From Candidula unifasciata (lineage: Eukaryota; Mollusca; Gastropoda; Stylommatophora; Geomitridae), in contig CAJHNH020000713.1 of assembly GCA_905116865.2 (NCBI GenBank), forward strand, positions 253,501-317,500: 64,000 nt of DNA, in the 5' to 3' direction. The notes beneath the pieces were generated by a model. It saw nothing but the letters and a program-made list of their open reading frames with translations, did not search any database and was not told where the DNA came from. The stretch's first letter is position 1. Every line of letters begins with the position of its first letter. A program made the translations under genes and the position numbers. Shown in pieces: positions 3,641-64,000 of this stretch.

Positions 3641-3644
3641 TACA

Positions 3645-4460
3645 TTCGCTGTACAGATCTGGCAAAAAGAATAATAATTTAACTACCTCACTACCAAGCA
3701 GTTTTTTTTTCTTCAACCCCTTATCCTATTGTGTTGTGCTTAAAATAGCAATAAGCACTTGCTTGAGAAGTTTCACAGGTTTATTTCGCTGCTGCCTCTG
3801 CTCATGAGACTAAAGGGAATTCCATAATAGGTCTAGCTGCTTCAGTGTAGACTTATCTTAATTTTTTTTTCATTAGCTTTCCACTATTTTTCTTTCAGTT
3901 TTTTTTTTTTTTTTTAATTAAATAAGTCTGTATAGCTTTTCACTGAATTTGTTTTTCTTCTTATGAGTTTGGCTTAAGAGCGAGGACCAGGCAGCTTCAG
4001 CAGCATGCTTTGTTCCAAACACTGGTGTTAACTGTCTTTTAGAGTAAACAAGGCGGGACGAGTCAGGAATCATGCTGTGTGAGCAACATATGGCGGCTAC
4101 TGTAATGCCCAAGTTGTGTGCTATTGAGAGGAGTAACTTTATCACTGGCCTTAACTGACTGTGATTCCTAGGCTTCCCTATGACACATTATATAACACTA
4201 TCACTTTCTAAAGGATAGGGGCTGTTGGGGTGTTTTCAACTGCCATCTAAGCAGCATCGAGAAACATTGGCCTTATATAGTTCTCGTAAATGAAGGCTTT
4301 TAAAGATATCCTGGTTTCGACATTTTAGTAATGACAGTTACATAAGCCACGAACAAATTTAACACTTTTCGACACCCTCTCTTAATTTTACTGACTTGCT
4401 TAAAAAAATGTTTATTTCAATGCTCTCCAAGATGTAGGAATTTAAATCAACTGTGTCCGA
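3645..4460. other. No recognisable gene
   Basis: AT-rich sequence with several T-homopolymers. A 75-codon minus-strand open stretch at 3918-4145 has no motif I recognise and no splice context worth calling. Confidence 0.5.
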
Positions 4461-4464
4461 CGCT

Positions 4465-12384: not shown

Positions 12385-13479
12385 TCACATAGAGGGTAAC
12401 TGACAAATCACAACTGCATATTCTTCATCTTCTGTCATTTCTGGCTCTTTACTTCTCAGTTTTTCCTTCTCACACTCTGTTGCATCCTGGTCTTGATCGT
12501 GATATCCTGATTCTGCGCTCTCTTCATCCGAGTCGGAATTGTTGTTCATGCAGTACTTGACAGCATCATCCTTACGAAGCTCATTCAGGTCATTACCAAG
12601 TTCAAGGTTGATGATAGGGTCACAGTTGAAGTAGTCTGCATCAAAGGAATCAGCCGATTCTAGATCTAAAGCCTCCAGGATGTCATGGTGCTCTTCACCG
12701 TGATGAAAGAGCTCACGCTGTGAAGAAGGACCAACTCCTGGAAGGGATGGTAGAAAGATGTCATTGTTATTATTACCCTGCAATCGAGGACCCACACTTC
12801 CTCGTTTTAGTCCGTGGTATTTCATTTTAATCATTTCTTCTTCGTCAGCACCAATGCACTCATCTTCTTCATCTTCTGTGATGGCGCCAAGCTTAAGTGC
12901 TGCTTGAGATTTTGACACAGGTGGTCGGAAATTTTTTGCTGTGCTCAAAAGCTGTGTTCGTAGAGGAAGGATGTTGCCATTGTTAGACAATACTTTGGTG
13001 CGCTGAACAGTAAGTCTTGAGTTTTGTTTTCGTAATTTCTCTCGCTGGAATTCCTTGAGAGCAAATGTGAGTTTCTGATGCAGTTGGAGAGCCATAGTTT
13101 TGGCTTTTGCCTCATTTTTGCACATAACAGCATGGCAACGTAGCTCCATTTTCATCTTCCGACCCTCGTGCCGGTACACCCACACAAAGAGGCGAGGATA
13201 TGCAGGGTGTGCAATGCAGTAAGATATTCTGTGGGCTCGATATTCTGTAAGACCCTGCTCTTTGGTATATGCTTTCATTCCTGAAGCAGTGACTACAACT
13301 GTCATCTCAATCCCCAGGTTGTCGCTGCGAAGGTAGTTGTTCCATATGGCATTTGTAGGACGATCAACACATCCTTCACCTTTCATTAAAGTGGTCTGAA
13401 CATTACCAAGGTAACGAACTTTAAAGGTCAGGTCTTGCTCGCTGATGTTCACGCTCTTCCGCCACCCAAACAAATTCAT
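12385..13479 (-). CDS. FAM43A-like PID/PTB-domain protein
   Basis: A single open frame of 364 codons from ATG at 13,479; the codons just upstream (GTG ATA) are in frame but lack an earlier ATG nearby. Residues about 17-150 look like a phosphotyrosine-interaction (PID/PTB) domain of the FAM43 family: the VRYLGN strand at 21-26, a GEGCVD segment at 34-39, AIWNNYL at 44-50, the HRISYCIAHP strand at 83-92, FVWVYRHE at 98-105, RCHAVMC at 114-120 and a C-terminal helix to about 150. The tail is unlike the domain: an acidic cluster at 201-216 (TEDEEDECIGADEEEM), a Ser/Asp-rich stretch at 315-330 and a second acidic patch at 349-353. FAM43 proteins are poorly characterised; a protein or phosphoinositide adaptor role is inference from the domain. 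No intron is needed and no stop interrupts it. Family assignment is from memory of FAM43A/B and is fairly secure; the A-versus-B name is not. Confidence 0.88.
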   Translation of the reverse strand: MNLFGWRKSVNISEQDLTFKVRYLGNVQTTLMKGEGCVDRPTNAIWNNYLRSDNLGIEMTVVVTASGMKAYTKEQGLTEYRAHRISYCIAHPAYPRLFVWVYRHEGRKMKMELRCHAVMCKNEAKAKTMALQLHQKLTFALKEFQREKLRKQNSRLTVQRTKVLSNNGNILPLRTQLLSTAKNFRPPVSKSQAALKLGAITEDEEDECIGADEEEMIKMKYHGLKRGSVGPRLQGNNNNDIFLPSLPGVGPSSQRELFHHGEEHHDILEALDLESADSFDADYFNCDPIINLELGNDLNELRKDDAVKYCMNNNSDSDEESAESGYHDQDQDATECEKEKLRSKEPEMTEDEEYAVVICQLPSM

Positions 13480-13966
13480 TATCACAGTTCTTGTATCTCT
13501 TTTTTTTTTAAACAGTCAAATTACTAACTTAAGATCTGTGTGTATAAAATTGTCCTAATATAATTCACCAAATCTTTTCAGGCAGGCAGTTGAAAAACAT
13601 GAAAGCCCCAGAGAAAAATGGGCCAATCTGCAGCATGTTTATATGGAAATATTTTTCAGCTTAAGCTTCAATAATGTCTTTATTTTGGCCAACCTGTTGG
13701 TTTTCAGATTTCTTTGGGGTTATACTGCAAAAGAAAGTAATATTTTAAACAATAATCTTTTTTCTTTGATAATCAATAGATAAGAAATGAAGTTAGAAAT
13801 TTCTTTGCCTCTGTATAACCATTAGTGATTAGAAGGCAATGAAACCACTGCTAAATCTGTTGTTCTGATATTCAAGGGAAAGTGGAATATCTTACAGATG
13901 ACAAACAGTTCTCTATAGGCAGGTAGGTATTCTTCACTAGAAACAGTATATGGTGCTAGAGTTGGT

Positions 13967-37245: not shown

Positions 37246-37434
37246 TTACTAAAGAAGGGGTCAGTCTGTCACTGTCAGTCTGTGTGTGTAGGATTACCAG
37301 ATTACCAGATTAGTGTCAGTCTGATTCATACACACAATCTGCAAGTGGTCTATTTGCTTTTTTTTTTTAAAATACGTAGTTGATAATGATGCTAACTCTA
37401 GGTGTTCATTTATCTCATATGGACTATATGCTAT

Positions 37435-39640
37435 CTCTCTCTCTCTCTCTCCCTCCCTCCTTCTCTATCCCGACTATATGTTCTCTCTCTCTACTATATG
37501 CTCTCTCTCTCTCTCTCTCTCTCTCGACTATACGCGCTCTCTCTCTCTCTCGACCATATGCTCTCTCTCTACTATATGCTCTCTCTCGACTATATGCTCT
37601 CTCTCGACTATACGCTCTCTCTCTCTCTCTCGACTATACGCGCTCTCTCTCTCTCTCGACCATATGCTCTCTCTCTCTCTCTCGACCATATGCTCTCTCT
37701 CTCTACTATATGCTCTCTCTCGACGATATGCTCTCTCTCGACTATACGCGCTCTCTCTCTCTCTCTCTCTCGACCATATGCTCTCTCTCTACTATATGCG
37801 CTCTCTCGACCATATGCTCTCTCTCTACTATATGCTCTCTCTCGACTATATGCTCTCTCTCTCTACTATATGCTCTCTCTCTCTCGACTATATGCTCTCT
37901 CTCTCTCTCGACTATATGCTCTCTTTCTCGACTATATGCTCTCTCTCTCGACTATATGCTCTCTCTCTCGAATATATGCTCTCTCTCGACTATGTGCTCT
38001 CTCTCTCGACTATGTGCTCTCTCTCTCTCGACTATATGCTCTCTCTCTCGACTATATGCTCTCTCGCTCTCGACTAAATGCTCTCTCTCTCTCTCGACTA
38101 TATGCTCTCTCTCGACTATATGCTTTCTCTCGACTATGTGCTCTCTCTCTCGACTATATGCTCTCTCTCTCTCTCTCTCGACTATATGCTCTCTCTCTCT
38201 CTCGACTATGTGCTCTCTCTCTCGACTGTATGCTCTCTCTCGACTATATGCTCACTCTCGACTATGTGCTCTCTCTCGACTATGTGCTCTCTCTCTCTCG
38301 ACTATGTGCTCTCTCTCGACTATATGCTCTCTCTCTCGACTATATGCTCTCTCTCTCGACTATGTGCTCTCTCTCTCTCGACTATGTGCTCTCTCTCGAC
38401 TATATGCTCTCTCTCTCTCGACTATATGCTCTCTCTCTCGACTATGTGCTCTCTCTCTCGACTATATGCTCTCTCTCTCGACTATATGCTCTCTCTCTCG
38501 ACTATATGCTCTCTCTCGACTATGTGCTCTCTCTCTCTCTCGACTATATGCTCTCTCTCTCTCTCTCTCGACTATGTGCTCTCTCTCTCTCGACTATATG
38601 CTCTCTCTCGACTATATGCTCTCTCTCTCGACTATGTGCTATATCTCTCTAGACTATATGCTCTCTCTCTCTCTCGACTATATGCTCTCTCTCTCGACTA
38701 TATGCTCTCTCTCGACTATATGCTCTCTCTCTCGACTATGTGCTCTCTCTCGACTATGTGCTCTCTCTCTCGACTATGTGCTCTCTCTCGACTATGTGCT
38801 CTCTCTCTCGACTATGTGCTCTCTCTCTCTCGACTATGTGCTCTCTCTCTCGACTATATGCTCTCTCTCTCTCGACTATGTGCTCTCTCTCTCGACTTTA
38901 TGCTCTCTCTCTCGACTATATGCTCTCTCTCTCGACTATATGCTCTATCTCGACTATGTGCTCTCTCTCTCGACTATATGCTCTCTCTCTCTCTCTCGAC
39001 TATATGCTCTCTCTCTCGACTATATGCTTTCTCTCGACTATATGCTCTCTCTCTCGACTATGTGCTCTCTCTCTCGACTATGTGCTCTCTCTCGACTATG
39101 TGCTCTCTCTCTCGACTTTATGCTCTCTCTCTCTCTCGACTATATGATCTCTCTCTCGACTATATGCTCTCTCTCTCGACTATATGCTCTCTCTCTCGAC
39201 TTTATGCTCTCTCTCTCGACTATATGCTCTCTCTCGACTATGTGCTCTCTCTCTCTCGACTATATGCTCTCTCTCGACTATATGCTCTCTCTCGACTATG
39301 TGCTCTCTCTCTCGACTATATGCTCTCTCTCTCTCGACTATATGCTCTCTCTCTCGACTATGTGCTCTCTCTCTCGACTATATGCTCTCTCTCTCGACTA
39401 TATGCTCTCTCTCGACTATATGCTCTCTCTCTCTCGACTATGTGCTCTCTCTCTCGACTATGTGCTCTATCTCTCTCTCGACTATATGCTCTCTCTCGAC
39501 TATGTGCTCTCTCTCTCGACTATATGCTCTCTCTCTCTCTCGACTATATGCTCTCTCTCTCGACTATGTGCTCTCTCTCTCGACTATATGCTCTCTCTCT
39601 CTCGACTATGTGCTCTCTCTCTCGACTATATGCTCTCTCT
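37435..39640. repeat. CT-rich satellite with CGACTATATG spacer, about 110 units
   Basis: Units are (CT)4-9 followed by CGACTATATG, or CGACTATGTG, CGACCATATG or CGACTTTATG, mostly 18 or 20 bp long. Mixed unit lengths and absence of stops leave all three plus frames open for hundreds of codons (up to 777) with Leu-Ser-Leu-Ser-Tyr-type repeats. These are repeat artefacts. Confidence 0.97.
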
Positions 39641-40009
39641 CTCTATCTGTGTGTGTGTGTTAGTGTATGTGTGCATGTGTTTTGCTCTGCACCTTTCTCG
39701 TATTCATTTATAGTTCTCTCTCTCTCTATCTCTCTGCTAGTCTCTGGCTCCATGTCTGTCTCTCCCTCCCTCACTCTCTCTCTCTCCCCTCTTGTGTGTT
39801 TGTGTGTGTGTGTGTGTGTATGTGTACCTGTCTTTTGCTCTGCATCTGTCTCATATTTATTTCTGTTTCTCTCACTCGGGTTCCTATTACCATGTCTTTT
39901 CTTGCTTATCTCCCCCCCCCCCCCCCTTTTTCCTCTGCGTCTCCGTGTCCCTGTATATGCCCATTTCTCTGCCTGTTATTATTTACTTCTCATTCTCAAC
40001 ACCCCTCTC

Positions 40010-46804: not shown

Positions 46805-46965
46805 TACTACCCAGCCTTAAGTAGGTACCAGGTGCAGTCCTAGGAAGTAAAGGCGGCAGGCGATATGCTGACCACATCACCCACCAAGTGCTGAATTGGT
46901 CTGTAGAAAATAGGTCTAGCCCTAAATGCCCAGTACGTCTGAAGGCGTGGAAAAGGGTCTTTTCT
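46805..46965 (+). mobile_element. SINE family C, 5'-truncated copy
   Basis: ACCCAGCCTTAAGTAGGTAC, CAGGTGCAGTCCTAGGAAGT and TAGGTCTAGCCCTAAATGCC, running to the AAAAGGGTCTTTT end and straight into the trinucleotide array. Confidence 0.8.
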
Positions 46966-46969
46966 TTTA

Positions 46970-49053
46970 CGACGAATACAACAACGACGACGACGACTAC
47001 AACGACGACTACAACGACGACGACTACAACTACTACAACGACTACAACGACGACTACAACGACGACTACAACGACTACAACTACAACGACGACTACAACG
47101 ACGACGACTACAACGACGACTACAACGACGACTACAACGACTACAACTACAAGACGACGACTACAACGACGACGACGACGACGACTACAACGACGACTAC
47201 AACGACTACAACGACTACAACGACTACAACGACAACGACGACGACTACAACAACGACTACAACGACTACAACGACTACAACGACTACGACGACTACAACG
47301 ACTACAACGACGACTACAACGACTACAACAACGACTACAACGACGACGACTACAACTACAACAACGACTACAACGACGACTACAACGACGACTACAACGA
47401 CTAAAACTACAACGACGACTACAACGACGACGACTACAACGACGACTACAACGACTACAATTACAAGACCACGACTACAACGACGACGACTACAACGACG
47501 ACGACGACGACGACGACGACTACAACGACGACTACAACGACTACAACGACTACAACGACAACGACGACGACGACGACGACTACAACGACGACTACAACGA
47601 CTACAACGACTACGACGACTACAACGACTACAACGACGACTACAACGACTACAACGACGACTACAACGACTACGACGACTACAACGACTACAACGACTAC
47701 AACGACGACTACGTCTACAACGACTACAAAGACTACAACGACTACAACGACTACAACGACGACGACGACTACAACGACTACAACGACTACGACGACTACG
47801 ACGACTACAACGACTACAACGACGACTACGTCTACAACGACTACAACGACTACAACGACTACGACGACTACAACGACTACAACGACTACAACGACGACTA
47901 CGTCTACAACGACTACAACGACGACTACGACGACTACGACGATGACTACGACGACTACAACGACGACGACTACAACGATGACTACAACGACTACGACGAC
48001 TACAACGACTACGACGATTACTACGACGACTACAACGACGATGACGACGACTACAACGACGACTGCAACGACACGACTACAACGACGACTACAACGACGA
48101 CTACAACGACGACTACAACGACTAAAACTACAACGACGACTACAACGACGACGACTACAACGACGACTACAACGACTACAATTACAAGACCACGACTACA
48201 ACGACGACGACTACAACGACGACGACGACGACGACGACGCCGACGACGACTACAACGACGACTACAACGACTACAACGACTACAACGACTACAACGACGA
48301 CGACGACGACGACGACGACTACAACGACGACTACAACGACTACAACGACTACGACGACTACAACGACTACAACGACGACTACAACGACTACAACGACGAC
48401 TACAACGACTACGACGACTACAACGACTACAACGACTACAACGACGACTACGTCTACAACGACTACAACGACTACAAAGACTACAACGACTACAACGACT
48501 ACAACGACGACGACGACTACAACGACTACAACGACTACGACGACTACGACGACTACAACGACTACAACGACGACTACGTCTACAACGACTACAACGACTA
48601 CAACGACTACGACGACTACAACGACTACAACGACTACAACGACGACTACGTCTACAACGACTACAACGACGACTACGACGACTACGACGATGACTACGAC
48701 GACTACAACGACGACGACTACAACGATGACTACAACGACTACGACGACTACAACGACTACGACGATTACTACGACGACTACAACGACGATGACGACGACT
48801 ACAACGACGACTGCAACGACACGACTACAACGACGACTACAACGACGACGACATCAACGACGACTACAACGACTACGACGACTACAACGACGACGACGAC
48901 TACGACGACGACGACAACGAGGACTACGACGACGACGACTACAACGACACGACTACAACGACGAGTACAACGACGACGACTTCAACGACGACTACAACGA
49001 CTACGACGACTACAACAACGAAGACGACGACTACAACGACGACGATGACGACG

Positions 49054-49080
<27 letters not shown>
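46970..49080. repeat. ACG/ACT/ACA trinucleotide satellite with a ~0.73-kb internal duplication
   Basis: About 2.1 kb of GAC/TAC/AAC triplets, mostly as ACTACAACG and ACGACG blocks. Rare landmarks (GACTAAAACTACAACG, GACTACGTCTAC, GACTGCAACGACACG) recur in order with an offset of 721-748 bp, so a ~0.7-kb block is present twice. The frames stay open for up to 601 codons (Thr-n, Asp-Tyr-Asn-n, Leu-Gln-Arg-n) because no triplet used is a stop; not genes. Confidence 0.97.
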
Positions 49081-49085
<5 letters not shown>

Positions 49086-49262
49086 TACTACTACTACCAC
49101 CACTACTGCTGCTAATACCACCACTACTACTACTGCCGCTACTGCCGCTACTACTACCACTACTACCACTACTACTACTACTGCCGCTACTACTACCACT
49201 ACAACTACTACTACTACCATTACTACTAATACTGCCGCTACTACTACTACTAGTACTACTAC

Positions 49263-49335
<73 letters not shown>

Positions 49336-51600: not shown

Positions 51601-51796
51601 AATTTGGCAGTCGCCGTGGCGGAGCGGCTAGACGCACGCCGCGGATCGGAAGGTCGTGGGTTCGCTTCCTGGTGGAGACGGACTTTTTCATACCCAGCCT
51701 TTAGTGGGTACCGAGTACAGTCCCAGGAAGTAAAGGCGGCCGGCGTGATGTTGACCACATCACTTTACTTGTGCCGATGGGTCTATAAAATATAGG

Positions 51797-52351
51797 TGTA
51801 ATGATGTTATAAATAGGGATAATGTCAGGGGATGATTGGCATAACTGGGGAAGTCCCTGAGAGCATGGGTTTCACGGAGATATGGTGAAACGACAGGAAA
51901 GAGTGAGTCACGTGTGAATGAGGAGATCTGGGGGATTGAGAATCAGGCGGTCATTCGGTGACTGGGCCCCATAGAGAAAGGATGGAAAATGAAGCTGTGA
52001 AGATGAATGGAGAATGACTAGAGCATGTGGATCTGAATCGGCGAGGAATGAATGATCGAGAAGGCCAGCTGTGATGGTACCCTGTTTGGATTGTCAAAGC
52101 CAGCTGTGAATATGTCAACGTCTATTGTCCGAATGCTGTAAGTGGATTCACCTGTGATTTGTGTATTGAGCTAACGTGTAAATAAACTCGTGAAATGTGC
52201 CGCTGATGTTAACCGTTGTTAGACGTTGTGTGACCGTGAAGAGGATCATGTCTGCTTTGATTGAGTTGTGAACCTCTAGACATCAGAGCCAGTGTTAACT
52301 CTGCACCACAGATAGCCAGTGTGGAGGAGACACAAAAGGGCAGTCATTACA
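51797..52351 (+). repeat. Left LTR, sense orientation
   Basis: TG...CA ends with 8-bp inverted termini (TGTAATGA / TCATTACA). TATAAATA lies near the left end at about 51,808. AATAAA near 52,179 could serve as polyadenylation signal. It is followed by one T and then TGGGAACCCGTCC, which resembles a tRNA-Pro primer site with two mismatches over its first 13 nt and none of the match beyond. Confidence 0.85.
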
Positions 52352-52439
52352 TTGGGAACCCGTCCTAAGTGCGAATACATTGTAAGTTATAAGTATGAGT
52401 TACAGTGCAGGCTTGTTCTAACTACGGCAGATGAAAATA

Positions 52440-52650
52440 CTAGGAAAAATTTTTACCAGGAACAGAAAAAGGATTTAACTCTAACACAATGCTTTGAAGC
52501 AACAAAACGAGGACCGAGAAAAACAAAAAATGCAGAATGGAAGTTCAAAGTAGACAAGGGAATTTTATCGAGAATTTATTCCAAAAAAAGGACGCATCAC
52601 AAAACAAACAGTACTACCACTGAAATTCCGAGAAAAAGCTATATCATTGG
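52440..52650 (+). pseudogene. pol fragment from around the integrase N-terminus
   Basis: The open frame from 52,319 encodes EQKKDLTLTQCFEATKRG, then WKFKVDKGILSRIYSKK. This resembles the linker before the integrase zinc finger of Gypsy-type elements, with the GILxR motif. At the 7-A tract near 52,582-52,588 a frame change is needed; the other frame continues as RITKQTVLPLKFREKAISLA up to the tRNA junction at about 52,650. Only this piece of pol survives. Family placement (Metaviridae-like) is inference. Confidence 0.65.
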
Positions 52651-52714
52651 CTAGGGGTATGATTCTCGCTTGGGGTGTGAGAGGTCCCGGGTTCAGATCC
52701 CGGACGAGCTCCCA
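52651..52714 (+). pseudogene. tRNA-Pro-derived segment including CCA
   Basis: CTAGGGGTATGATTCTCGC matches tRNA-Pro from the D loop on. Anticodon stem CTCGC/GTGAG with loop TTGGGGT gives anticodon GGG (AGG is usual in animals). T arm CCGGG-TTCAGAT-CCCGG is intact at 52,687-52,703, followed by ACGAGCT, a discriminator C and CCA at 52,712-52,714. The 5' acceptor strand and start of the D arm are missing, replaced by pol sequence. Then one A and the inverted LTR. CCA is not encoded in eukaryotic tRNA genes, so a mature tRNA was probably the template. Confidence 0.88.
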
Positions 52715-52715
52715 A

Positions 52716-53269
52716 TGTAATGACTGCCTTTTTGTGTCTCCTCCACACTGGCTATTTGTGGTGCAGAGTTAACACTGGCTCTGATGTCTAGAGGTTCACA
52801 ACTCAATCAAAGCAGACATGATCCTCTTCACGGTCACACAACGTCTAACAACGGTTAACACCAGCGGCACATTTCACGAGTTTTTTTACACGTTAGCTCA
52901 AAACACAAATCACAGGTGAATCCACTTACAGCATTCGGACAATAGACGTTGACATATTCACAGCTGGCTTTGACAATCAAACAGGGTACCATCACAGCTG
53001 GCCTTCTCGATCATTCATTCCTCGCCGATTCAGATCCACATGCTCTAGTCATTCTCCATTCATCTTCACAGCTTCATTTTCCATCCTTTCTCTCTGGGGC
53101 CCAGTCACCGAATGACCGCCTGATTCTCAATCCCCCAGATCTCCTCATTCACACGTGACTCACTCTTTCCTGTCGTTTCACCATATCTCCGTGAAACCCA
53201 TGCTCTCAGGGACTTCCCCAGTTATGCCAATCATCCCCTGACATTATCCCTATTTATAACATCATTACA
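52716..53269 (-). repeat. Right LTR, antisense orientation
   Basis: Reverse complement of the left LTR. Differences I can see include a 1-bp indel near 52,979, AAATAAAC versus AAAAAAAC (AATAAA lost here) and several single substitutions. On its own strand it is followed by T and TGGGAGCTCGTCCGGGAT, the form of primer-binding site used by tRNA-Pro-primed retroelements. Confidence 0.88.
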
Positions 53270-53431
53270 ATAGTTCTAGCCCTATATGCCCCATACGCCT
53301 GAAGGGATGGAAAAGGGTCCTTCACTTTACTTTATTTAACTTTGTTACTAATGGTTTTCACGTGAATCGCAGATTTATTGCTCGTATGTGTGTTTGTGTG
53401 TGCCTGTGTGTGTTTGTGTGTACCCGTTGGC

Positions 53432-53826: not shown

Positions 53827-54184
53827 CCACCTGACCTGATGTTGAAAGTAAAGATAAATATTCTATTCCTATTAATATTATTATTATTATTATTAATGTT
53901 ATAATTGTTATCACTATTATTATTACTATTATTTAAAAAAAAACTATTATGCAAGAATGATCACGAATGATAAAAATGATTGAAGGTAATGATGATGACG
54001 ATTTTTTAAAAATTCTCCTTCATGTGGTACAATCTAAACATTTTAAACCAAGTGACTCAAGGGGCCACTATTGGGATGTCAGTCCAGTCAGGGAAACCCC
54101 CCAGATAAGACCGTGTAACATTACAATTGTTGTGTGGCATTTCAGGACGACGAGATAACTTTCTATCCTATGCTTGGATTGCTA

Positions 54185-54320
54185 TTGACGACAATCAATG
54201 GTGGTAGTGATGACGACAATCAATGGTGGTAATGATGACGACAATCAATGGTGGTAATGATGACGACAATCAATGGTGGTAATGATGACGACAATCAATG
54301 GTGGTAGTGATGTCGACAAT
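54185..54320. repeat. Minisatellite, 25-bp unit, 5 units
   Basis: Unit GACGACAATCAATGGTGGTA plus ATGAT; nearly identical units. Confidence 0.9.
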
Positions 54321-54324
54321 GACG

Positions 54325-54610
54325 ATAATAATGATGACTCTTCCAGTTCAAATTTGAAGATAGACACTTCAATGTTTTTAGTTGTGGCACAATTTTGCTT
54401 CTGACAGACGATGGCCATTGCAGACTGAAAGGATATAGTTTTGTCGCCCAGCTACTGGGCTGAGTGCATAGCGTGAAACTGTGAGCTACAGATATTTTTC
54501 AGAATGTATTTTTATACATGGTGCTGTGAACTGATTCAGGAAATAGCAAGTGGCCTGTTTCCACAGAACTGATGGTGCCTTGTGTGGTTAAAATTAATTG
54601 CCTGTGCAAC
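54325..54610. other. No recognisable gene
   Basis: Unique-looking sequence with stops in all frames. Confidence 0.4.
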
Positions 54611-54614
54611 TACT

Positions 54615-54735
54615 TATCCGGCGTGATGCTGACCACATCACCCATCTTGTGCTATTGATCTATAAAATATAGGTCTAGCCCTATATGCCCACACGCCTAA
54701 AGGCGTTGAACAGGGTCCTTTACTTTTTTTTTCCA
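54615..54735 (+). mobile_element. SINE family C 3' fragment
   Basis: CCGGCGTGATGCTGACCACA, TCACCCATCTTGTGC, AATATAGGTCTAGCCCTATA and GCCTAAAGGCGTTGAACAGG. Confidence 0.8.
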
Positions 54736-54989
54736 ACTACTAATCTGTTTGTAACGGATGCTTACGTCGATTATGAACTGAATTTGCAATGTTAGACTGT
54801 TTCTGCTGGCACTTCTGATGGCTGTCTTAAGCAATTAATGCGTATTTATGCTCATAAACGAACGAACGAACACACTTTTTTTTGAAGGGTTAAGAATTGG
54901 GCACGCAGGCCCGTCTAACATTTGGCCCTTCTGGTCTCCCACCTTTCAGACATCATTTCTTTTATACATCAAGTAATAGTACACATTAT

Positions 54990-55180
54990 TCCTTCGAAGT
55001 CAGAGCGCATCTGCCTGAGAGACAGGGAACCAAAAGTCTGCACACAAATATGTCAGATCTGTCAAACGGATGCACACGCAAAACTTAGGTTCTGGAACAG
55101 GACTGCAGTACAAAAGTGGACGAACAACCAGAACTTTCCACCAGAGCTTACAGCTGGTAAACGCAAAGAAGAATAAGTAC
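54990..55180 (+). mobile_element. Family G upstream segment
   Basis: GAGCGCATCTGCCTGAGAGA, GGGAACCAAAAGTCTGCACA and GTGGACGAACAACCAGAACT. The frame encodes RICLRDREPKVCTQICQICQ with Cys pairs, then WNRTAVQKWTNNQNF. Similar peptides can be read from the other copies. Confidence 0.55.
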
Positions 55181-55184
55181 TCAT

Positions 55185-55635
55185 TATCAACAGCATCAAT
55201 ATTTCCAATACATGCCCTGGAATGTGCAACAAATATTTTGATGTGTTTATATAGGGACTAGTGGTTTTTTGTTTTGTTTTGAAAGGTAGTTCCAGTATTG
55301 AGCTGCCAATATGCTGCATATGAGGAGGCTGCAATCCGGATCAATTTTTCCACAAGGGACAGTGATGGACATTCTGTGTGTTCTTCATTGGCACAGATAC
55401 GGAGAAATTATGGGATGAGCCGCTTGTTATGAAGCCTAAACTAAGATGACCTGAATGGTGATACTAGCTGAGTGTAATTGATCATTGGTAATGACAATTA
55501 GTATTATAATTGAACGTTGATGGTGAGGACTGTTTATTCAATGATGATGATAAGCAAAACCGTGCCGTCCTATAATAAAGAGAGATGTCGCCGCATCAGG
55601 CGGCACCGTAGGGGGGGATGGGGGCGGTAAAATCA
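55185..55635. other. No recognisable gene
   Basis: Nothing recognised beyond short ATG/ATC trinucleotide runs. Confidence 0.4.
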
Positions 55636-55639
55636 TTGT

Positions 55640-56230
55640 GATTTAAATACATCATCATCATGTAGCAGGTTCTTTGCAGAACGCCGTTCTCATCACGGTC
55701 TGCCTGAAAGAAACTCAGTCTCTCACCAGCTCTCCCACTACGTGAACTTTCATATTCAAGGAGTCACTTATATCCTGTGCCCATCTTCGTGTTGGTCAGT
55801 AACTGACACTCCTTCCTGGCACCATGCCTTTTGCTATTATTTTTTCCAATTCGCCATGGCGCTTGATATAGCCAAAACATTTCAGCTTCCGAGACAAGAT
55901 GCTGTTTATCAGCCAATCTTCCTTGATGTTCAGATCTTTTAAAATGTCAGTATTTCTTCTCTTCTTTGTCCGTGGTATTCTGAGAATCTTTGTATAGCAC
56001 TTCTGCTCAAAAGCCACTATTTTCTTTTTAAATAACTGAGAAATATTCCACGACACATCCATATGTAGCTACATCGAAGATGCATGCTCTCAAAACTTTA
56101 ATTTTGATTTCCTTGCTGGTGCTTAACCAAAAATGTTAATAATGTTTAATCTTTGCATTGCTATGGCCATTCTCCTTTTAATTTCTGTCAAACAGTCGCC
56201 ACTGCTATCTATTATAGAGCCTAGTTAATC
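55640..56230 (-). mobile_element. 5'-truncated LINE 3' end with (ATG)n tail
   Basis: The minus-strand frame 55,796-56,062 encodes VAFEQKCYTKILRIPRTKKR, RRNTDILKDLNI, then LSRKLKCFGYIKRHGELEKI. This is the post-RT region of an endonuclease-RT LINE. It continues, frameshifted, to RAGERLSFFQADRDEN-like sequence and a CATGATGATGATG tail near 55,648-55,660. Distinct from the LINE at 20.3 kb. No RT catalytic core. Confidence 0.8.
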
Positions 56231-56234
56231 AAAG

Positions 56235-56425
56235 TTATCAAAATACAATTTTTACATTTAATGGGCGGCATTTATCAAAATATATTTTTTTTTACATTTG
56301 AGGGGCGGTATTTATCAAACTACATTTTTTTTTACATTTCAGGGGCGGTATTTGTCAAAATACAATTTTAAAATTTAAGGGGCGGCATTTGTCAAAAACA
56401 ATTTTAACGTTTAAGGGGCGGCCTT
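56235..56425. repeat. ~46-bp tandem repeat, 4-5 units
   Basis: Units centre on TTTAAGGGGCGGCATTTATC then AAAATACAATTTTTACA; the T-run length varies. Confidence 0.85.
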
Positions 56426-56664
56426 TCGAAGACTTGCATCACACTGACGGTCTTGGTGATAATTAGATGACTGATAGGACTAGGCAAAGTATTGTCTGGC
56501 CATGGGCTACAGGACCGCTTGGGTATTACTGTAGGAGGTCTTGGCACACGGGACTCTGGCTAAGTTGCAACAGGCCTAGCAAGCCAGCAAGTATTTTATT
56601 ATGGCTGAAGATGATTTCATTGAGATGCAAACAGAAACATATATCCTCGTCGACACTCAAAGCG

Positions 56665-56800
56665 GTAAAAGGAGAAAAAAAAAAAGAAGAAAAGAAGAAG
56701 AAGAAGAAGAAGAAGAAGAAGAAGAAGAAGAAGAAGAAGAAGAAGAAGAAGAAGAAGAAAAAGAAGAAGAAGAAGAAGATGATGATGATGATGATGATGA
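56665..56800. repeat. (AAG)n then (ATG)n array
   Basis: Plus-strand AAG run of about 35 units followed by GAT units. The polylysine/polyglutamate frames are artefacts. Confidence 0.95.
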
Positions 56801-56869
56801 TGACGACGATTGTGGTGGTGGTGGTGGGTGGTAATGATGATGATTCTAATACAGATGTTAATTATTGAT

Positions 56870-58105
56870 CGACTTCATGGAAATCAAGGACAATGCCACG
56901 TGTATGGTTGGACACATAAAACAAATCGCGTGAGAAAATTAGGGCAGTGAATTATCAAATAATCCTCTTAGTTCTCATCTGCCCTTGGTATTCTATAACA
57001 CACCACTGCTTAATAGCAAACATGAAGTAAGCAAGGCAAGAACAGGGCTGTGCCATAAAAGCGCCTTAATTTGGGACATCCGTGAGCCAAAAATAAAACA
57101 ACAGCCTTGGGCAATGGGCGTAGACAGAAAGTACATTGCGTAGATAAATCTGCAGTTATCACGTTATGTAGTGGGATCAGTTGCGATACAAGCCTATGAG
57201 ACACGGAACACTCCCGTTTTGATAACAAAATCTACGATCTAGTGGCTTCATTGCATCTGCCAACAGATGGTAGTCCTAGATAGTTGTTGCGTCAACACTT
57301 TTCTACGAAAGCAATGTTCTTCATTGTGAATTTGAAGAACGAAGACGCAGATAACAGTTTGCACAATTTTATTGCCTGGCATATTTCGCTGTATCTCGTC
57401 AGGTGTATACTATACTAAAAAAATAATTAAAAATTAAGAAAATAAATAAATCCTTTGAACTGAAACAGCAACTCGACTACATTTTTTTAACTGTCTGTTG
57501 TTACCAGGGTTAGCGCAAGGTGAAGAGCATGTCTTTTGGTTTGTATAATTTTGGACTGAACCGGTTTATCGCGGTCGCTTCCACAAATCTCAAAAATCTA
57601 CGGTTGGCTAAAGTTGGCTTTTCTATCTAACTGTGCGTGTACTTTAGACTAATACTCTAAGTCTGAAGAGGTGAAAACAGTGCAACTATGGAACAGAATT
57701 AGTTAATTTACCAATTAGGATAGAATGGATTGGAGTAAAAGAAAAATGGCGCAGAAGAAACTAAGAAATGTACACCCGCATAAAGAAAATAATAAACGGA
57801 TAATGAGCTGCTCGGTATTTATAGCGTTAAACATCATAATTGTTCTAAAAGAACGGAAATGGAGGGTATGGTTTCTTAGAAGAAGGAGCAGCTGTAGACC
57901 AGCGCGACGGTTGACATACATAATATACATGACGCAGTGGGTTTTAATGTTCGCGGAGCAGGTGAATTGGAAGGGAAATAGATGTGAAGCCTGCATTGAT
58001 AAAAGCAACGTTCTGTAAAGAGCTTGCTCCATCATAATGATAAAATAATGTAGAAATTAAAGAATTAGGAAATTCATTTTTAGCTGAGACAGGCAATGTA
58101 TGACA
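56870..58105. other. No recognisable gene
   Basis: About 1.2 kb with no repeat family I know. A short block at 57,355-57,410 (TTTGCACAATTTTATTGCCT, TGTATCTCGTCAG) resembles 19,876-19,920. A 97-codon plus frame (57,725-58,018) and a 106-codon minus frame overlap each other and have no known motif. Confidence 0.4.
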
Positions 58106-58110
58106 CCACT

Positions 58111-58305
58111 CAGTGCCCGGCTCGCTAGCGCAGTTGGCTAAACCGGACTTCGCCGCGACAGGGTGACGAAACTCCTTGTGGTCCGGGTTCACGCTCGGGG
58201 TTAGGCAGAAAACAACACCTCTACGGTACCTATCATGGAATCAAGGCCGAAGGGTTGCGATATCTATAATACCGAGGGTTAACAAATCATGGCTTAGGAA
58301 TACTT
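58111..58305 (+). mobile_element. SINE family B, copy 3
   Basis: CCCGGCTCGCTAGCGCAGTT, GGTGACGAAACTCCTTGTGG, GTCCGGGTTCACGCTCGGGG and CATGGAATCAAGGCCGAAGG, directly followed by the ATCT array. Confidence 0.87.
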
Positions 58306-58307
58306 AA

Positions 58308-58583
<276 letters not shown>

Positions 58584-58589
58584 GCATTA

Positions 58590-59030
58590 ATCCATCCATA
58601 ATCCACTTATACACGTTTGTCTCTTTATTTCCCCAAATGCGTGTATCTCCTGCGCCTGACTGTCTATCTGTGGGTCATTTGATTCTGTGTCTGTCTATTC
58701 TCCCACCAAAATGCCTTATCATTCTGTCTGGAAGTTACTTTTATCACTCATGCCTTAAGCGACTCGAAAACTCCGACCGTCCCCGAATCAAAGATTGGGT
58801 ATAACGACGGCACGCAAGGGAGATTAGCCAGGGCTGCTGTGTTTTTCATTAGACCATCTCATAAACGCGACAGCTCGGGTTTGTGATGTTGTTACTAGTC
58901 ACGCAATAGTGCCGAGCGGTATTGGCTTTTTCCTTATTCTATATGTCTCTTGTTTTTCTGTTTGCAACCAAAACTAACAATGATTCTTTCTATATACTAA
59001 TTACTACTTGTACGCGGGGGGGGGGGGGGG
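58590..59030. other. No recognisable gene
   Basis: Ends in a poly-G tract of about 19 nt near 59,016-59,032. Confidence 0.4.
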
Positions 59031-59033
59031 GGC

Positions 59034-59605
59034 TGCGTGCGTGGTCTAGAGGCATGGTGTCTGCCTCGATTGCTAGAGGTAACTCTGTTGCACCGTCAAG
59101 GATCTTGAAATACTTTTTAATTAATATATCCAGTTTCGTCCTTTTTAGGCCGAATTTTTTTGTTAGTTGAAGCTTTTGCCAGGGGCCGCAATATAGGCAG
59201 GCCATAAATATGGCCTATTGTCTAAACGCGGTTTCTGGGACCTCTCCACGGCGATCCTTATCCACATGGTGGCACTTTGTGTCATCGGGTGTTTATCGCT
59301 TGTGTGATGTCCTAGTGGGGTAGAAAGTCAGTCAGTCAGTCAAATACTTTGGGTAGGTTTTTTAACTCCAAATTTTACTCAGGCGGCTCTGTTAAGCTAC
59401 TTTTTTCGATATCCAACTGCCAGGGAATTTTTTACGAGCGCAAAAATGCACACGGGCGTTCGATCTCACTACCCAGAGACCAGGGGGAATTACTCAAAGT
59501 CTAAGACCACGTGAAAAAAAATCCTAGCCCTTACCAGGGATTGAACCCGGAACCTCTAGTAATCAAGACGAACACCATGCCTCGAGACTACGCAGTCTTC
59601 CCCCC
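59034..59605 (-). mobile_element. SINE family F copy split by a family A insertion
   Basis: Right part 59,342-59,600: AAATACTTTGGGTAGG, CAACTGCCAGGGAATTTTTT, GATCTCACTACCCAGAGACC and GATTGAACCCGGAACCTC. Left part 59,085-59,116: ACCGTCAAGGATCTTGAAAT. A piece of F head in plus orientation (GTGGTCTAGAGGCATGGTGT) sits at 59,040-59,085, so the locus was also rearranged. Confidence 0.7.
59117..59341 (-). mobile_element. Family A repeat, copy 11, inserted in SINE F
   Basis: Minus-strand copy from a GACTGACTGACT start at its right end to the hairpin (TTCGTCCT at 59,135-59,142, AGGCCGAA after a 4-nt loop) and an AT-rich tail at its left end. AAATACTTT occurs on both sides (59,108-59,116 and 59,342-59,350): a 9-bp target duplication. 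Confidence 0.85.
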
Positions 59606-59609
59606 CCCC

Positions 59610-60095
59610 CCCCCCCCCCTCCCGCCACATTGAATCGTCGTGAGGTGGAGTGCCTTGTTGTTTTCTTCGATCTATCCATGATATTCCTTTTTTTTTTTTT
59701 GCTTGGCTGTTTATTGCTCCTGTCTTACACGAATTTAAAAGTACAGATTAAGACTTTCAACACAAGTTTTTAAAAAAAAAAGAGCTTTCTAAGCAGCAAT
59801 ATTGTGTACAAGGAGATGTTCATTACTTTTGTTAAGCTGCTAATCCATCTCTTTAGAGACCGTCTTTTGCTTAATCCCTGCTATAAGCGTACATACAAAC
59901 CCTTATTGCATCCCGGTATCAAATCTGTGCGTATAATTATTCAGCTTTTGTCTGCACGACGATAAAAAGAAAGGACTGCAGGGGTGGAGAGGGGACGGGA
60001 GCGAGCACTCAGCCCCTTAATACAATTCTAGGGGTCGTGATGTGTACAACCTGTTTAAGTGCGCAATAATAATTAAAAAATATTACTTAGGGAGG
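59610..60095. other. No recognisable gene
   Basis: Poly-C near 59,601-59,619 and a T-run near 59,688-59,700. Otherwise unrecognised. Confidence 0.4.
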
Positions 60096-60099
60096 TGAG

Positions 60100-61095
60100 A
60101 GCAAGCATGTTTCGTGCAAGGAATTCCAGAGAAATTTGACTTGAAAGCTCAGTAAAATGGGGAAGCAGAAAAACGTGCACAAAACAACACAATTAGCGTT
60201 TCGGCCGGGCAGCCTTTTTCAAACATAAGTGAACTACACAAACGTAACAACGAGGAGAGTATGGGGTGACATGAGCAACGTTTAAAAAAATGTGATGTGG
60301 AATAAATGAAATAAAATAAACGATGGTTAAAAAATATAGTCAAAAAAATAATAAACAGTAGTATTGTTAATATAAAATATATTACTGGGGAAAAAAAGAA
60401 ACACAAATGTTAATGATACATAAATGATACTGATAAGCAATAGAATAAAGTAATAATATGAAATAAAAGAAAAGAAAATAATTAACATTTAAAATGTGAT
60501 AAGAGCAGAACTATTTAGATGAAGGTATGTTGAATATTGATAACACCTGGACTAAGACGCCTAGGCTGTGGATGAGGCGATTTTCCAAAGCGAGGCGCGT
60601 AGTATGATCGCCAGAGCAAGATTTTAATGCTGTGACAGATATATCATCTTTAAGTCTGTGGTCAGAGCTATTAAAATGGAGAGGGTTTGGTTTAAGTGTC
60701 TTCTTGTCAATATCGTATAGGTGTTTCCGGAAACGATCAGCTAGCTTCCTGCCCGTTTCCCCAATATATGCCTTGCTGCATCGTTTGCAGTTAATTGCAT
60801 AAATTACGTTGCGGGATTCGCAAGTAAAAGGTTCTCTTATTTGGAAAGAACCATTAGGGAAACTGACCGAAGAAGTCTGGACAACGATTTTTTTTTTAAA
60901 CGTTGCTCACGTCACCCCTTAGAGATCTACATACTCTCCTCTCCTCGTTGTTACGTTTGTGTATGTAGTTTACTTATGTTTGAAAAAGGTTGCCCGGCCG
61001 AAACATTACGTTGTGTTGTTTTGTTCACGTTTTTCTGCTTCCCCATTTCGACGAGCTTTTTAGTCAAATGTCTCTGGAATTCCTTGTATTAGCTT
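60100..61095 (-). mobile_element. Penelope-like element fragment with inverted terminal copies
   Basis: Minus-strand order: GIY-YIG endonuclease frame (60,890-60,511), AT-rich 3' UTR, then a terminal block at about 60,300-60,100. The block contains ACGTTGCTCATGTCACCCC, CTCGTTGTTACGTTTGTG, GGCCGAAACGC and TGGAATTCCTTG. The same block is present in plus orientation at 60,886-61,090. Inverted partial copies at the upstream end are common in Penelope-like elements. The RT domain is absent. Confidence 0.85.
60511..60890 (-). CDS. Penelope-like element GIY-YIG endonuclease domain (fragment)
   Basis: The minus-strand frame is open for about 125 codons to TAG at 60,513-60,511, with no start codon of its own. 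It encodes GSFQIREPFTCESRNVIYAI, then NCKRCSKAYIGETGRKLADR and FRKHLYDI, then LHFNSSDH and LENRLIHSLG. The VIY and YIG strands, the Arg of GETGRKL, the CxxC pair and the Glu in LENRLI are the expected GIY-YIG motifs of PLE proteins. In these elements the domain nicks target DNA for reverse transcription. It is the C-terminal domain only; the open frame upstream is lost where the inverted copy begins. Confidence 0.9.
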
Positions 61096-61129
61096 GACTG
61101 CAGTCACCCCCCTATTTTCACCATGTTTC

Positions 61130-61560
61130 GTGCAGCCGTGACACGCTTCGCTTTGGATGTCGTTGGTGAGGAGCATTCTCCAGGTGATGCCAGTTTGTTG
61201 GAAAACGAACAGGCGGACAGAATGGCTGGCGCTACACAACTTGGTGGAATATTGATGCATGATAAAGCAGACGTGGTTAGGGCCTCACTGGAGAACGTGT
61301 GCACACCTCAGAGGAGCAAATGGATCACCACAGTCTGGTGAGAGTAATGGGGAATGGTAAAGAGATGGTAAAGATAGGAACGGCAAGGCGGACGTGTTAT
61401 CAGAATGGTAATGGCACTATTATTGGAACTCTGCGCTGGCTGCTGAAGATGAGGAATGCAAGGAGTGTTGTAATGCCACCATTAGTATTGGAACTCTGTG
61501 CTGATTGCTAAAGATGGGGATCGATCGCTTATGGGAATACCATGAGTGCTGTCATGTCGG
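61130..61560 (+). mobile_element. Family G retroelement copy
   Basis: The frame encodes ENEQADRMAGATQLGGILMH followed by DKADVVRASLENV, the NExAD segment of RNase H-like domains, better preserved here than at 28.6 kb. It is followed by GAGAGTAATGGGGAATGG, ATTGGAACTCTGCGCTGGCT and GTGCTGTCATGTCGGTTC. Confidence 0.65.
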
Positions 61561-61944
61561 TTCTTGAATCAACTCAACTCTTAATAAAAACAAAAATATA
61601 TTAATATAGTTGTAGTAGATGCTGAATGGCAATAAAATATTTTTAAAAATATGTCTGAAATATTATGAGATACATGAAATAGTTGGTTTGGTTTGTTTTC
61701 CCCCTCAATGGGACCCCGGAACCCACACGGGGAGCGAACCTAATTTCGCTTTCATTTTCTATTTGCAGTCGAACCTTACCCACAAAGAACTGCCGATTGC
61801 TTCTGAGTAGAATAGCTGTTACGAGTGCCCCTATTATAGCTCTTTTTTCGGCTAAACGGGGTATCTGGGAATCTGCATTGTTGGCCTGCCATCCTGATTA
61901 CGTATTTGCTTAGTTCTCAAAATGGTATGATTAACCTTTAACCT

Positions 61945-64000
61945 TTAACATATGTCCAGAGTGGTCAAAGGCAAATGGGGTCTACATTCCCAAAGAGCAG
62001 GACTCGAAGAGTCTTTCCCAATTCAGGCCCATCTCGCTGTTGAATGTCGAGGGTAAGATATTCTTCTCAGTCATGGCTCGCCGGCTCACACAGTATCTGA
62101 TGACTAACAAGTACATAGATACGAGTGTTCAGAAGGGTGGTATCCCAGGCGTTCCTGGGTGCCTTGAACACGCGACCATGATCTGGGAGGCTATCCAGAG
62201 AGCCAAGCATGAGAGAACCGATTTGCACGTTATATGGTTGGACTTAGCCAACGCCTACGGGGCAGTCCCCCATAGGCTACTGTGGCGAGCCCTTCGCATG
62301 TTTCACGTACCGACACAGATCAGTCAAATGGTCGAGCAATATTTCTCCAAGTTCGCTTTGCGCTTCTCTACCTCGACGTTTACCACGAGGTGGACTGAGT
62401 TGCAGATTGGGATAGCTATGGGCTGTACGATCTCACCCATACTGTTTGTCATGGCAATGCAGATCATGTTAGACGGGGCGGCCGGCTACGGACTGGGCCT
62501 TCAAATAGGGGATCACTGGTTGCCGCCATTACGCGCATTTATGGATGACACGACTATTATAACGAGCAGCGAGGAGTCTGCCCGCACGATCCTGGAAAGA
62601 TTGGACGCGGTGGTCCAATGGAGCGGTATGCAGTTCAAACCGCAGAAGTCGAGGAGTCTGTCAATCCATAAGGGCAAGGTGTCGGCGACCAGTTTTACGG
62701 TGGCAAGGAACAAGATCCCTACGGTTCTGGAGGAACCGGTGAAGAGTCTCGGTACGATTCAAAGTTATCTGACAGAGCGGAGGTCCGGCGAATACATGAG
62801 TCACTGGCTACAGGCCTGCTCGCGATCGAGCGATGCAGGCTGATCGGGAAATTCGAGGTATGGTGTCTCCAATTCATGTTGATTCCGAAGCTTCTATGGC
62901 CACTGCTAGTCTACGAGGTGACGATGACTGCAGTGGAAACCATGGAAAGAAAATCAACACAGCCTTAAGAAAGTGGATTGGTGCACCGCCTTGTCTGACC
63001 GACGTGGCTCTGTATTGTAAACAGGCTAAGCTGGTACTTCCGTTCAAGTCTATAACCGAAGAGTTTAAAGTCGGCAAAGTTAGGCTCGCCATGCTTCTGC
63101 GCGAGTCCTCAGACCCAAATGTCATCGCTGTCCAGCCCGCTCTAAAGACTGGTCAGAAGTGGAGAGTCCTCGATGCGATTGAATCTGCTCAGAACGCACT
63201 AATATTGAAGGAGGTAATGGGTTACACACAAACCGACCGTCGAGGCCTAGGGCACGGGAAAGTCAATTGGTGGTCAAAGGCCTCAGCCAAAGAGCGCCGA
63301 GACATGGTGATACAAACGGTGAGGGACAACGAAAACGAGGTTCGGGTCCAGAAAGCAGCCCAACAGTCGCAGCAGGGCCATTGGGTCAGCCTGGAGAGCG
63401 CATTGCCAAGAGTACTCACATGGGGTGAGATCTGGCGGATGACCCCGCTGCGACTGAGCTTTATCGTTCGTTCGGCGTACGATGTATTACCGTCCGGTGT
63501 TAATATGGTTAAATGGTCTGCGACCAACGATCCGACTTGCCCGTTGTGCAAATCAAAGCAAACTCTTGAGCACGTCCTGTCCGCGTGCAGGAAAGCCCTA
63601 GGTCAAGGCCGATATACCTGGCGCCACAAAAAGGTGCTAAAGGAGTTAGCAGCCGTTGTCGACCAGGCTAGAATGAGGGCTAACGCCAGAGCCAGTTCTA
63701 GTATCGCCCCCATTCGTTTCCTCAAGGCTGGGCAGGTTCCAATCGGTAAGGTCAACAAAAACGCATTCGCTCCATCTGTACTAGACTCTGCGAGGGACTG
63801 GTTACTGGCGGTTGATCTGCCAGGCCATGAACGGTATCCCGAGTTGATCCGTAAAACCGGTCTGCGACCGGACATCGTTCTCCATTCTGCGCAAAAACGG
63901 CAACTCATCCTGATTGAGTTGACGGTCCCGTTTGAGTCGCGTATGGAGGAGAATCATTTGTACAAGCTCGAGAAGTACAGTGATTTAGCAGCCGGTTTGA
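61945..64000 (+). mobile_element. 5'-truncated LINE of R2-superfamily type (RT, CCHC, restriction-like endonuclease)
   Basis: Runs off the right edge. Coding starts mid-protein at about 61,945 (VYIPKEQDS, FRPISLL). RT motif A is LDLANAYG at 62,238-62,261, motif B GIAMGCTISP, and motif C FMDD at 62,538-62,549. Two frame changes, near 62,757 and 62,952, move the reading to a third frame that then stays open to 64,000. That frame has a Cys-x2-Cys-x7-His-x4-Cys finger (codons at 63,538, 63,547, 63,571, 63,586) and RPDIV (63,865) with IELTVPFE (63,913 on), the PD-x-E core of the restriction-like endonuclease used by R2, R4, NeSL and HERO-type LINEs for site-selective nicking. FMDD replaces the commoner F/Y-A-DD. 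Upstream DNA-binding fingers are absent, fitting 5' truncation. Clade within the superfamily is undecided. Confidence 0.9.
62040..62843 (+). pseudogene. Reverse transcriptase core of the R2-superfamily LINE, frameshifted
   Basis: The longest uninterrupted piece of the RT (267 codons, plus about 31 open codons upstream to TAA near 61,932). It carries motifs A, B and C in order. The true frame leaves this one near 62,757, so the last ~28 codons are out of frame and the stop at 62,841 is artefactual. No in-frame stop lies inside the motifs, so decay is limited to two 1-nt lesions in the visible part. Confidence 0.85.

Follow-up and report, generated by a model that had tools for sequence, protein, structure and literature searches.

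An inverted-LTR retrotransposon insertion with a 64-nt copy of its tRNA-Pro primer, probably formed from strong-stop DNA and integrated by two U3 ends

We describe an LTR retrotransposon insertion in which two LTRs face each other in opposite orientation and in which the inner side of the right LTR continues, after a one-base spacer, into 64 nt of tRNA-Pro, from A76 to C12. It is one insertion with one target duplication around the whole element, and it lies in one SINE copy. The structure is probably the result of a tail-to-tail junction between a tRNA-tailed plus-strand strong-stop DNA and a second plus strand with a deletion, followed by integration via two U3 ends, and it is thus likely the remnant of a reverse-transcription dead end. 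The locus is part of a window of 64,000 nt, by which we mean the whole stretch of DNA that was analyzed.

Architecture of the locus

The features of the locus are collected in Table 1. An initial annotation of the window had described opposite-facing repeats of about 555 bp with TG...CA ends, separated by about 360 bp, and had suggested aligning 51,797-52,351 with the reverse complement of 52,716-53,269. This alignment was carried out and confirmed the description, with arms of 555 and 554 bp at a distance of 364 bp. Left arm and reverse complement of the right arm are identical in 548 of 555 aligned columns, and the seven differing positions comprise six substitutions and one indel. Halves of the arm pair also top the list of inverted repeats in the 64-kb window. 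The LTR ends read TG...CA and form an 8-bp terminal inverted repeat, TGTAATGA with TCATTACA at the opposite end. The annotation had further assigned an inward-facing primer-binding-type sequence to each arm, which holds for the left arm (TGGGAACCCGTCC) but not for the right arm, where the 64 nt of tRNA-Pro are found instead.

Table 1. Coordinates of the inverted-LTR insertion in the window.
Feature	Position	Strand	Basis or remark
Left target duplication copy ATAGG, within SINE	51792-51796	.	flank comparison
Left LTR (U3-R-U5), 555 bp, TG...CA	51797-52351	+	arm alignment, family copies
Left LTR signals TATAAA and AATAAA	LTR positions 12 and 385		
One-base spacer T and primer-binding site TGGGAACCCGTCC	52352-52365	+	family copies
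Family 5' leader, 59 bases	52366-52424	+	terminal 6 bases TAACTA common to pol piece (deletion junction)
pol piece, 234 bp, sense	52419-52652	+	just upstream of and into integrase zinc-binding region
tRNA-Pro stretch, 64 nt, standard positions 12 to 76 including CCA	52651-52714	+	
One-base spacer at tRNA CCA/LTR boundary	52715-52715	.	A here is T on LTR sense strand
Right LTR, 554 bp, opposite orientation, U3 end outermost	52716-53269	-	
Right target duplication copy ATAGT	53270-53274	.	one base unlike left copy

A single insertion into a SINE

The left flank ends in ...AAAATATAGG, and the right flank begins with ATAGTTCTAGCCC. The empty site is visible in eight other SINE copies that were aligned across this point by BLAST within the window, none of which (0/8) contains the LTR. 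Five of the eight copies (50396, 46808, 32026, 54618, and 44290) read ATAGGTC across the site, and the remaining three (50023, 45775, and 46051) deviate from this by small changes. The target duplication, short and of constant length, reads ATAGG/ATAGT with four of five bases identical. No matching 5-bp flanks were found around either LTR alone when inner and outer sides were compared. As the duplication is present only at the outer sides and the empty SINE site is visible, the locus must be regarded as a single insertion with two U3 outer ends. The placement in a single SINE copy with flanks ATAGG and ATAGT had already been noted in the initial annotation and was borne out by the SINE alignments. 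Its proposal, that an LTR-pol-inverted-LTR molecule was integrated once with both of its U3 ends, likewise agrees with the outer flanks, with the empty site seen in other SINE copies, and with the lack of inner duplications.

In principle, two independent LTR insertions could have occurred side by side in opposite orientation, and solo LTRs are indeed plentiful in the family (10 of 40 contexts in the best-matching sample described below). The annotation had named two solo-LTR insertions, each with its own target duplication, as the finding that would speak against its proposal. Neither LTR has a duplication of its own, only the outermost flanks agree, with the SINE resuming there, and the inner sides hold leader, pol, and tRNA instead of SINE sequence, which makes this alternative extremely improbable.

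The tRNA-Pro stretch

The tRNA stretch starts exactly at the CCA plus the one-base spacer of the family, as seen after the 5' LTRs of leader-bearing copies, although the spacer count itself proves nothing because these contexts were selected by T+TGG. Local alignment to human tRNA-Pro (reference sequence from the available part of PMC12217144) gave a score of 112, which still takes in a few pol bases beyond C12, while the next best score in the remaining window scanned (1-52100 and 54001-62100, both strands) was 34. From A76 to C12, the copy differs from human tRNA-Pro at positions 72, 58, 40, and 34. The anticodon reads GGG, with position 34 being G, and position 58 is G where m1A58 is expected. 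The exchange C40 to T falls in a CpG and may be due to later decay.

Animal proline tRNAs have A34 (converted to inosine), U34, or C34. According to the available sections of PMC11417395, reverse transcriptases read inosine as G, and m1A58 causes high error in reverse transcription. Among the primers of retroviruses, tRNA-Pro is reported to carry m1A58, and with unmodified tRNA plus-strand synthesis reaches the 5' end (PMC13191261, available sections). The best reading of the sequence is that G34 would represent a copied inosine and G58 a misread m1A58, with A34 assumed for the host. G34 may also derive from a host tRNA-Pro gene carrying G34, and G58 could be a later mutation of A58, in line with its occurrence in the studied locus only, as two further family loci, L042 and L041, have A58. 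A point against the proposed origin of the stretch is that the seven changes in 1109 arm bases let one expect 0.4 changes in 64 nt, compared to the three seen besides position 34 (counted by hand).

The copy stops one base short of U11-G10-G9. G10 is often methylated in tRNA (m2G10). Methylation of G9 (m1G9) is described in the available part of PMC11417395, and methylated G9 or G10 could have stopped the polymerase at C12. A U11-deleted copy that would reach tRNA position 4 was also considered but dropped: as the family pol reads ATCATTGGCTCATGAC, the stretch ATCATTGGCT belongs to pol, and the tRNA copy thus begins at C12. An identical base change at tRNA position 72 is found in the left primer-binding site (52353-52365 of the window), in the right tRNA copy (52702-52714), and also in the primer-binding site of family copy L003. 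This common A at position 72 is possibly due to arm-to-arm gene conversion or to the use of a U72 isodecoder by the L003 subfamily.

As Helenus elements bear tRNA-like sequence in their LTRs (PMC10886601, available part), we also considered that the stretch could be a tRNA gene, a pseudogene, or a standing part of a Helenus-like, small-RNA-bearing LTR element. This is very unlikely, however, as the stretch has a CCA, is positioned outside the LTR, and begins precisely where primer extension would start. A tRNA probe matched only two of the 30 loci L001-L030, both of which are the studied locus, and in L041 and L042 it likewise matched outside the LTR only. ARAGORN predicted no tRNA gene in the window, and the Rfam tRNA score of the stretch (15.4 bits) is under the gathering threshold of 29. 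This low score also counts to some degree against the tRNA-copy reading. No tRNA-Pro patterns were found in viral_contigs and genome_contigs.

Primer-binding site, leader, and pol piece

The commonest primer-binding site of the family is TGGGGACCCGTCC, and L003 carries the same A form as the TGGGAACCCGTCC of the left arm. Eleven of the 19 contexts with T+TGG read TGGGGACCCGTCCTAAGTGCGA, that is T+TGGGGACCCGTCC, after the LTR. When compared by hand with the complement of human tRNA-Pro, 11 of 13 bases of the primer-binding site match. The leader switches to pol at TAACTA (52419-52424), a motif that is present in both leader and pol. The pol piece terminates with ...GGCT at 52652, at which point a family copy near the start of L004 continues with ...GGCTCATGAC. 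The two bases CT (52651-52652) are common to the pol piece and the tRNA stretch.

An integrase coding region was found in the family pol, where L004:2-121 matches Integrase_H2C2 (E 7.9e-11) and corresponds to the start of the integrase zinc-binding domain. Comparison of the translated frame P0002 with solved structures yielded foamy-virus integrase (3.2e-5) and Ty3 Gag-Pol (1.3e-4). The 99-codon frame P0001 gave chance-level matches only against Pfam and PDB; at the 3' end, pol is read in a different frame. Searches with P0001 returned no homologous proteins and no confirmed match in viral_contigs, and no phage records were found.

Family copies elsewhere in the genome

We searched the 1.34 Gb of the own genome with the left LTR and scored the best 40 of 703 candidates, so that the sampled family members are those closest to the left arm, and every count given here refers to that sample. 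After removal of duplicates of the same place, 44 LTR matches resulted in 40 distinct contexts, two of which are the studied arms. Nineteen contexts have T+TGG downstream, ten are solo LTRs (a class defined by exact 5-bp duplications), nine are 3' LTRs, and two are others. The nine 3' LTR contexts have a polypurine tract (PPT), TTGTTTAAGG(G/A)GAGGAGAGA, whose ending, by which the class was defined, is GGGGAGGAGAGA in eight of nine cases and GGAGAGGAGAGA in one. The family thus has both a tRNA primer-binding site and a PPT. Fifteen of the 19 T+TGG contexts, 14 besides the left arm, run into the leader, and the remaining four are the right arm of the studied locus, L040, L039, and L031.

The annotation had also suggested searching the assembly for the parent element and for other inverted-LTR copies. 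Copies with direct LTRs were found, namely the TG...CA-ended pairs at C1834 (192048/199959) and C655 (64333/66940), whereas the loci L001-L030 showed no other pair of inverted LTRs. The family is an integrase-bearing LTR retrotransposon, which from the pieces read appears to be Ty3/gypsy-like.

The primer-binding site is mismatched to the tRNA in all 14 other leader-bearing contexts, indicating that the primer-binding site of the family is not a tRNA copy. After the 5' LTR of L023 (G000:C1834), the primer-binding site reads TGGGCGCTCGTCC and is followed by the normal leader. It is within one base of the tRNA complement over 13 positions and hence closer than the family form, so that L023 has possibly inherited its primer-binding site from the tRNA.

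Among the 38 other LTR contexts of this best-matching sample, two further loci have a tRNA-Pro complement longer than 18 nt. tRNA copying past the usual 18 nt has therefore taken place at three loci of the sample. In L040, or L042 when a wider region is taken (G000:C288:521000-529500, 3530-4376), the LTR is followed by the spacer and 68 nt of tRNA-Pro complement, reaching U8. The anticodon is GGG, and the sequence is otherwise identical to human tRNA-Pro. The GGG anticodon is thus present in both copies that are long enough to reach it. The tRNA stretch of L042 is followed by sense pol up to a direct 3' LTR. On the U3 side of the tRNA-bearing LTR, an inverted segment is directly adjacent, made up of primer-binding site, leader, and at least 1.3 kb of what normally comes after the leader, which makes L042 a second rearranged copy. 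L039, or L041 in the wider region, has 32 nt of tRNA-Pro, past A58, with one difference at position 69. No second LTR was found near L041 in the 8 kb read. In L041 (G000:C376:206000-214000, 3992-4578), there are no matching 5-bp flanks, and because of this its tRNA end may have been joined without integrase. In L031 (G000:C655, 1055-1064), about ten bases resembling the tRNA-Pro complement, one G short, follow the LTR and lead into sense pol; L031 is a direct-LTR deletion copy with a CCTAT duplication.

Parentage and age of the arms

The two arms share three less common states, A110 (13/28), T155 (9/28), and G440 (13/28), as counted among 28 other LTRs, and all three occur together in only five of the 28 (counted by hand). 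Each of the seven arm differences is private to one arm, three to the left and four to the right, and all 28 other copies are uniform at these positions. The common states together with the private differences indicate that both arms descend, as sister products, from a single parental type. The differences arose either by divergence since the insertion or by miscopying at birth. From the high identity of the arms, the event had been annotated as fairly recent. This holds only in a relative sense, as the LTR pair of the direct-LTR copy L023/L011 has one difference in comparison to the seven found here, and the insertion is therefore not among the youngest.

Proposed formation of the insertion

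In normal reverse transcription, synthesis of plus-strand strong-stop DNA begins at the PPT, which makes the U3 end the 5' end of the strand, and proceeds through U3-R-U5 into the first part of the tRNA, after which the strand is transferred by pairing at the primer-binding site. In the studied locus, the PPT-primed strong-stop strand would have copied U3-R-U5 and then run on into the attached tRNA-Pro, past m1A58 and inosine 34 up to C12, and the tRNA copy is joined to the LTR at the CCA plus the family spacer. The left half consists of LTR, primer-binding site, and leader, followed by the jump via TAACTA into pol, and this leader-to-pol deletion was presumably made during reverse transcription. 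The pol piece ends with GGCT and the tRNA copy starts with CTAGGGG, so that the two strands are complementary to each other at their final two bases (CT and AG). The 3' ends of both plus strands may have paired through these two bases, with each being extended on the other. Alternatively, the tRNA-tailed strand could itself have acted as a primer on genomic RNA at GGCU and then have copied pol, leader, U5, and R backwards. Both join orders give the same sequence, order and direction are thus not told apart, and the 2-nt overlap is weak evidence. In either case, both strands would begin at PPT-defined U3 ends, resulting in a duplex with two U3 termini. As the terminal 8 bp are the same at the U3 and U5 ends, two-U3 integration needs no new activity, and the common TGTAATGA would make both ends acceptable to integrase. 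Integration by this enzyme would then have left the one 5-bp target duplication that is present in the SINE.

The same molecule could have formed by another route, in which cDNA ends, one of them tRNA-tailed, were united by host end joining before integration. The 6-nt and 2-nt overlaps fit microhomology joining equally well as template switching, and an HIV provirus with a reverse-transcribed tRNA beside the LTR has short shared sequences at its joins, as described in the available part of PMC12220202. End joining, however, requires a duplex end that retains the long tRNA copy, and L042 and L031, in which LTR and tRNA-like complement lead into sense pol, fit template switching of a growing strand better. 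We therefore regard the end-joining route as rather unlikely, although it deserves to be kept in mind.

Inverted circular retroviral DNAs that result from auto-integration are classical, and in principle auto-integration or a later chromosomal inversion could have flipped one LTR of a normal element. Neither process, however, accounts for a tRNA copy at the inner U5 end. An inversion would moreover need a breakpoint precisely at the outer end of the LTR and yet keep the target duplication in place, so that this explanation is highly improbable. Inverted repeats are also a known source of assembly errors. An artefact is nevertheless very unlikely here, as the arms differ at seven places, the stretch between them is not palindromic, and both flanks make one SINE in a contig of 769 kb. 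Formation from strong-stop DNA and a deleted plus strand by template switching thus remains the explanation that we favor.

Comparison with known systems

The locus resembles the strong-stop DNA of Ty3 and Ty1 in that a PPT-primed strand has copied part of the primer tRNA and in that the primer-binding site is not inherited from the tRNA. In these yeast elements, the plus-strand strong-stop DNA made first includes a copy of part of the tRNA, is displaced, and stays a dead end, the progeny primer-binding site is no tRNA copy, and the Ty3 dead-end product accumulates in particles (PMC5371799, available part). The Ty3-type attachment of a tRNA copy at U5, by the primer-extension junction, is also found at the studied locus. 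In contrast to the 12-nt yeast tRNA copy, which according to the same available text is a dead end in particles, the copy described here has 64 nt and resides in a chromosome.

Further parallels exist to an HIV-1 provirus with tRNA-Gly by its 3' LTR, which also contains most of a tRNA including the CCA (67 of 72 nt in HIV). As far as described in the available part of PMC12220202, the tRNA-Gly replaces the host flank and is outside the provirus, whereas the tRNA-Pro of the studied locus fits the element's own primer-binding site and is located inside, at the U5 extension point, between inverted LTRs. The locus is also similar to the HIV-1 product P1 on unmodified tRNA-Lys3, where reverse transcriptase traverses the tRNA to its 5' end. 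In the available sections of PMC13191261, P1 is not among the products serving the next transfer. P1 is a product of reverse transcription, in contrast to the genomic insertion studied here. Helenus TRIM elements are LTR elements that likewise contain tRNA-like sequence, and their duplications measure 4 or 5 bp; unlike here, their tRNA-like sequence is inside the LTRs and is a standing feature of the family (PMC10886601, available part). Within the LTRs of the studied locus, no tRNA-like sequence was found.

The opposite orientation of the terminal repeats is reminiscent of DIRS-1. Retrotransposons of the DIRS-1 type have opposite-facing terminal repeats, rely on a tyrosine recombinase, and are not known to produce target duplications. 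The studied family, unlike these, includes copies with direct LTRs, its integrase region is of the retroviral type, and its duplications measure 5 bp. A DIRS-type element was rejected because a target duplication is present and direct-LTR copies exist.

Implications

The component parts of this interpretation, namely LTR retrotransposon, plus-strand strong-stop DNA, tRNA read-through, template switching, and microhomology, are already known. Among the literature matches listed, which were mostly from outside the subscription journals, we found no report of a natural chromosomal insertion that has two U3 ends together with primer tRNA at the inner junction. In the reverse-transcription models consulted, plus-strand synthesis halts inside the primer tRNA, within its first 12-18 nt, and strands that extend beyond this are lost. 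The studied locus and the two other family loci provide chromosomal evidence that further-running strands were rescued and inserted. In addition, the locus is evidence that, in nature, integrase can likely use a pair of U3 ends, and with G at the inosine position and G at position 58 it is likely a DNA record of tRNA modification. It is an old idea that tRNA-derived elements, such as SINEs, originate from strong-stop DNA joined to its primer, and the locus makes this origin testable. We propose, only tentatively, that this would be a working route by which strong-stop DNA gives rise to elements that bear tRNA sequence, and that the genome would thereby preserve the tRNA modifications of the cell in which such an element was founded.

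Other features of the window

The window contains a long open frame at 12388-13515 on the minus strand that encodes a phosphotyrosine interaction domain (match to PID_2 of Pfam, E 5.1e-65) and is likely a FAM43-type host gene. At 61935-62840 on the plus strand, there is a reverse transcriptase open frame (RVT_1, E 1.2e-24) that is likely a LINE piece. Simple repeats extend over 46900-49300 and 37400-39900, and these long tracts contain open frames on several strands.
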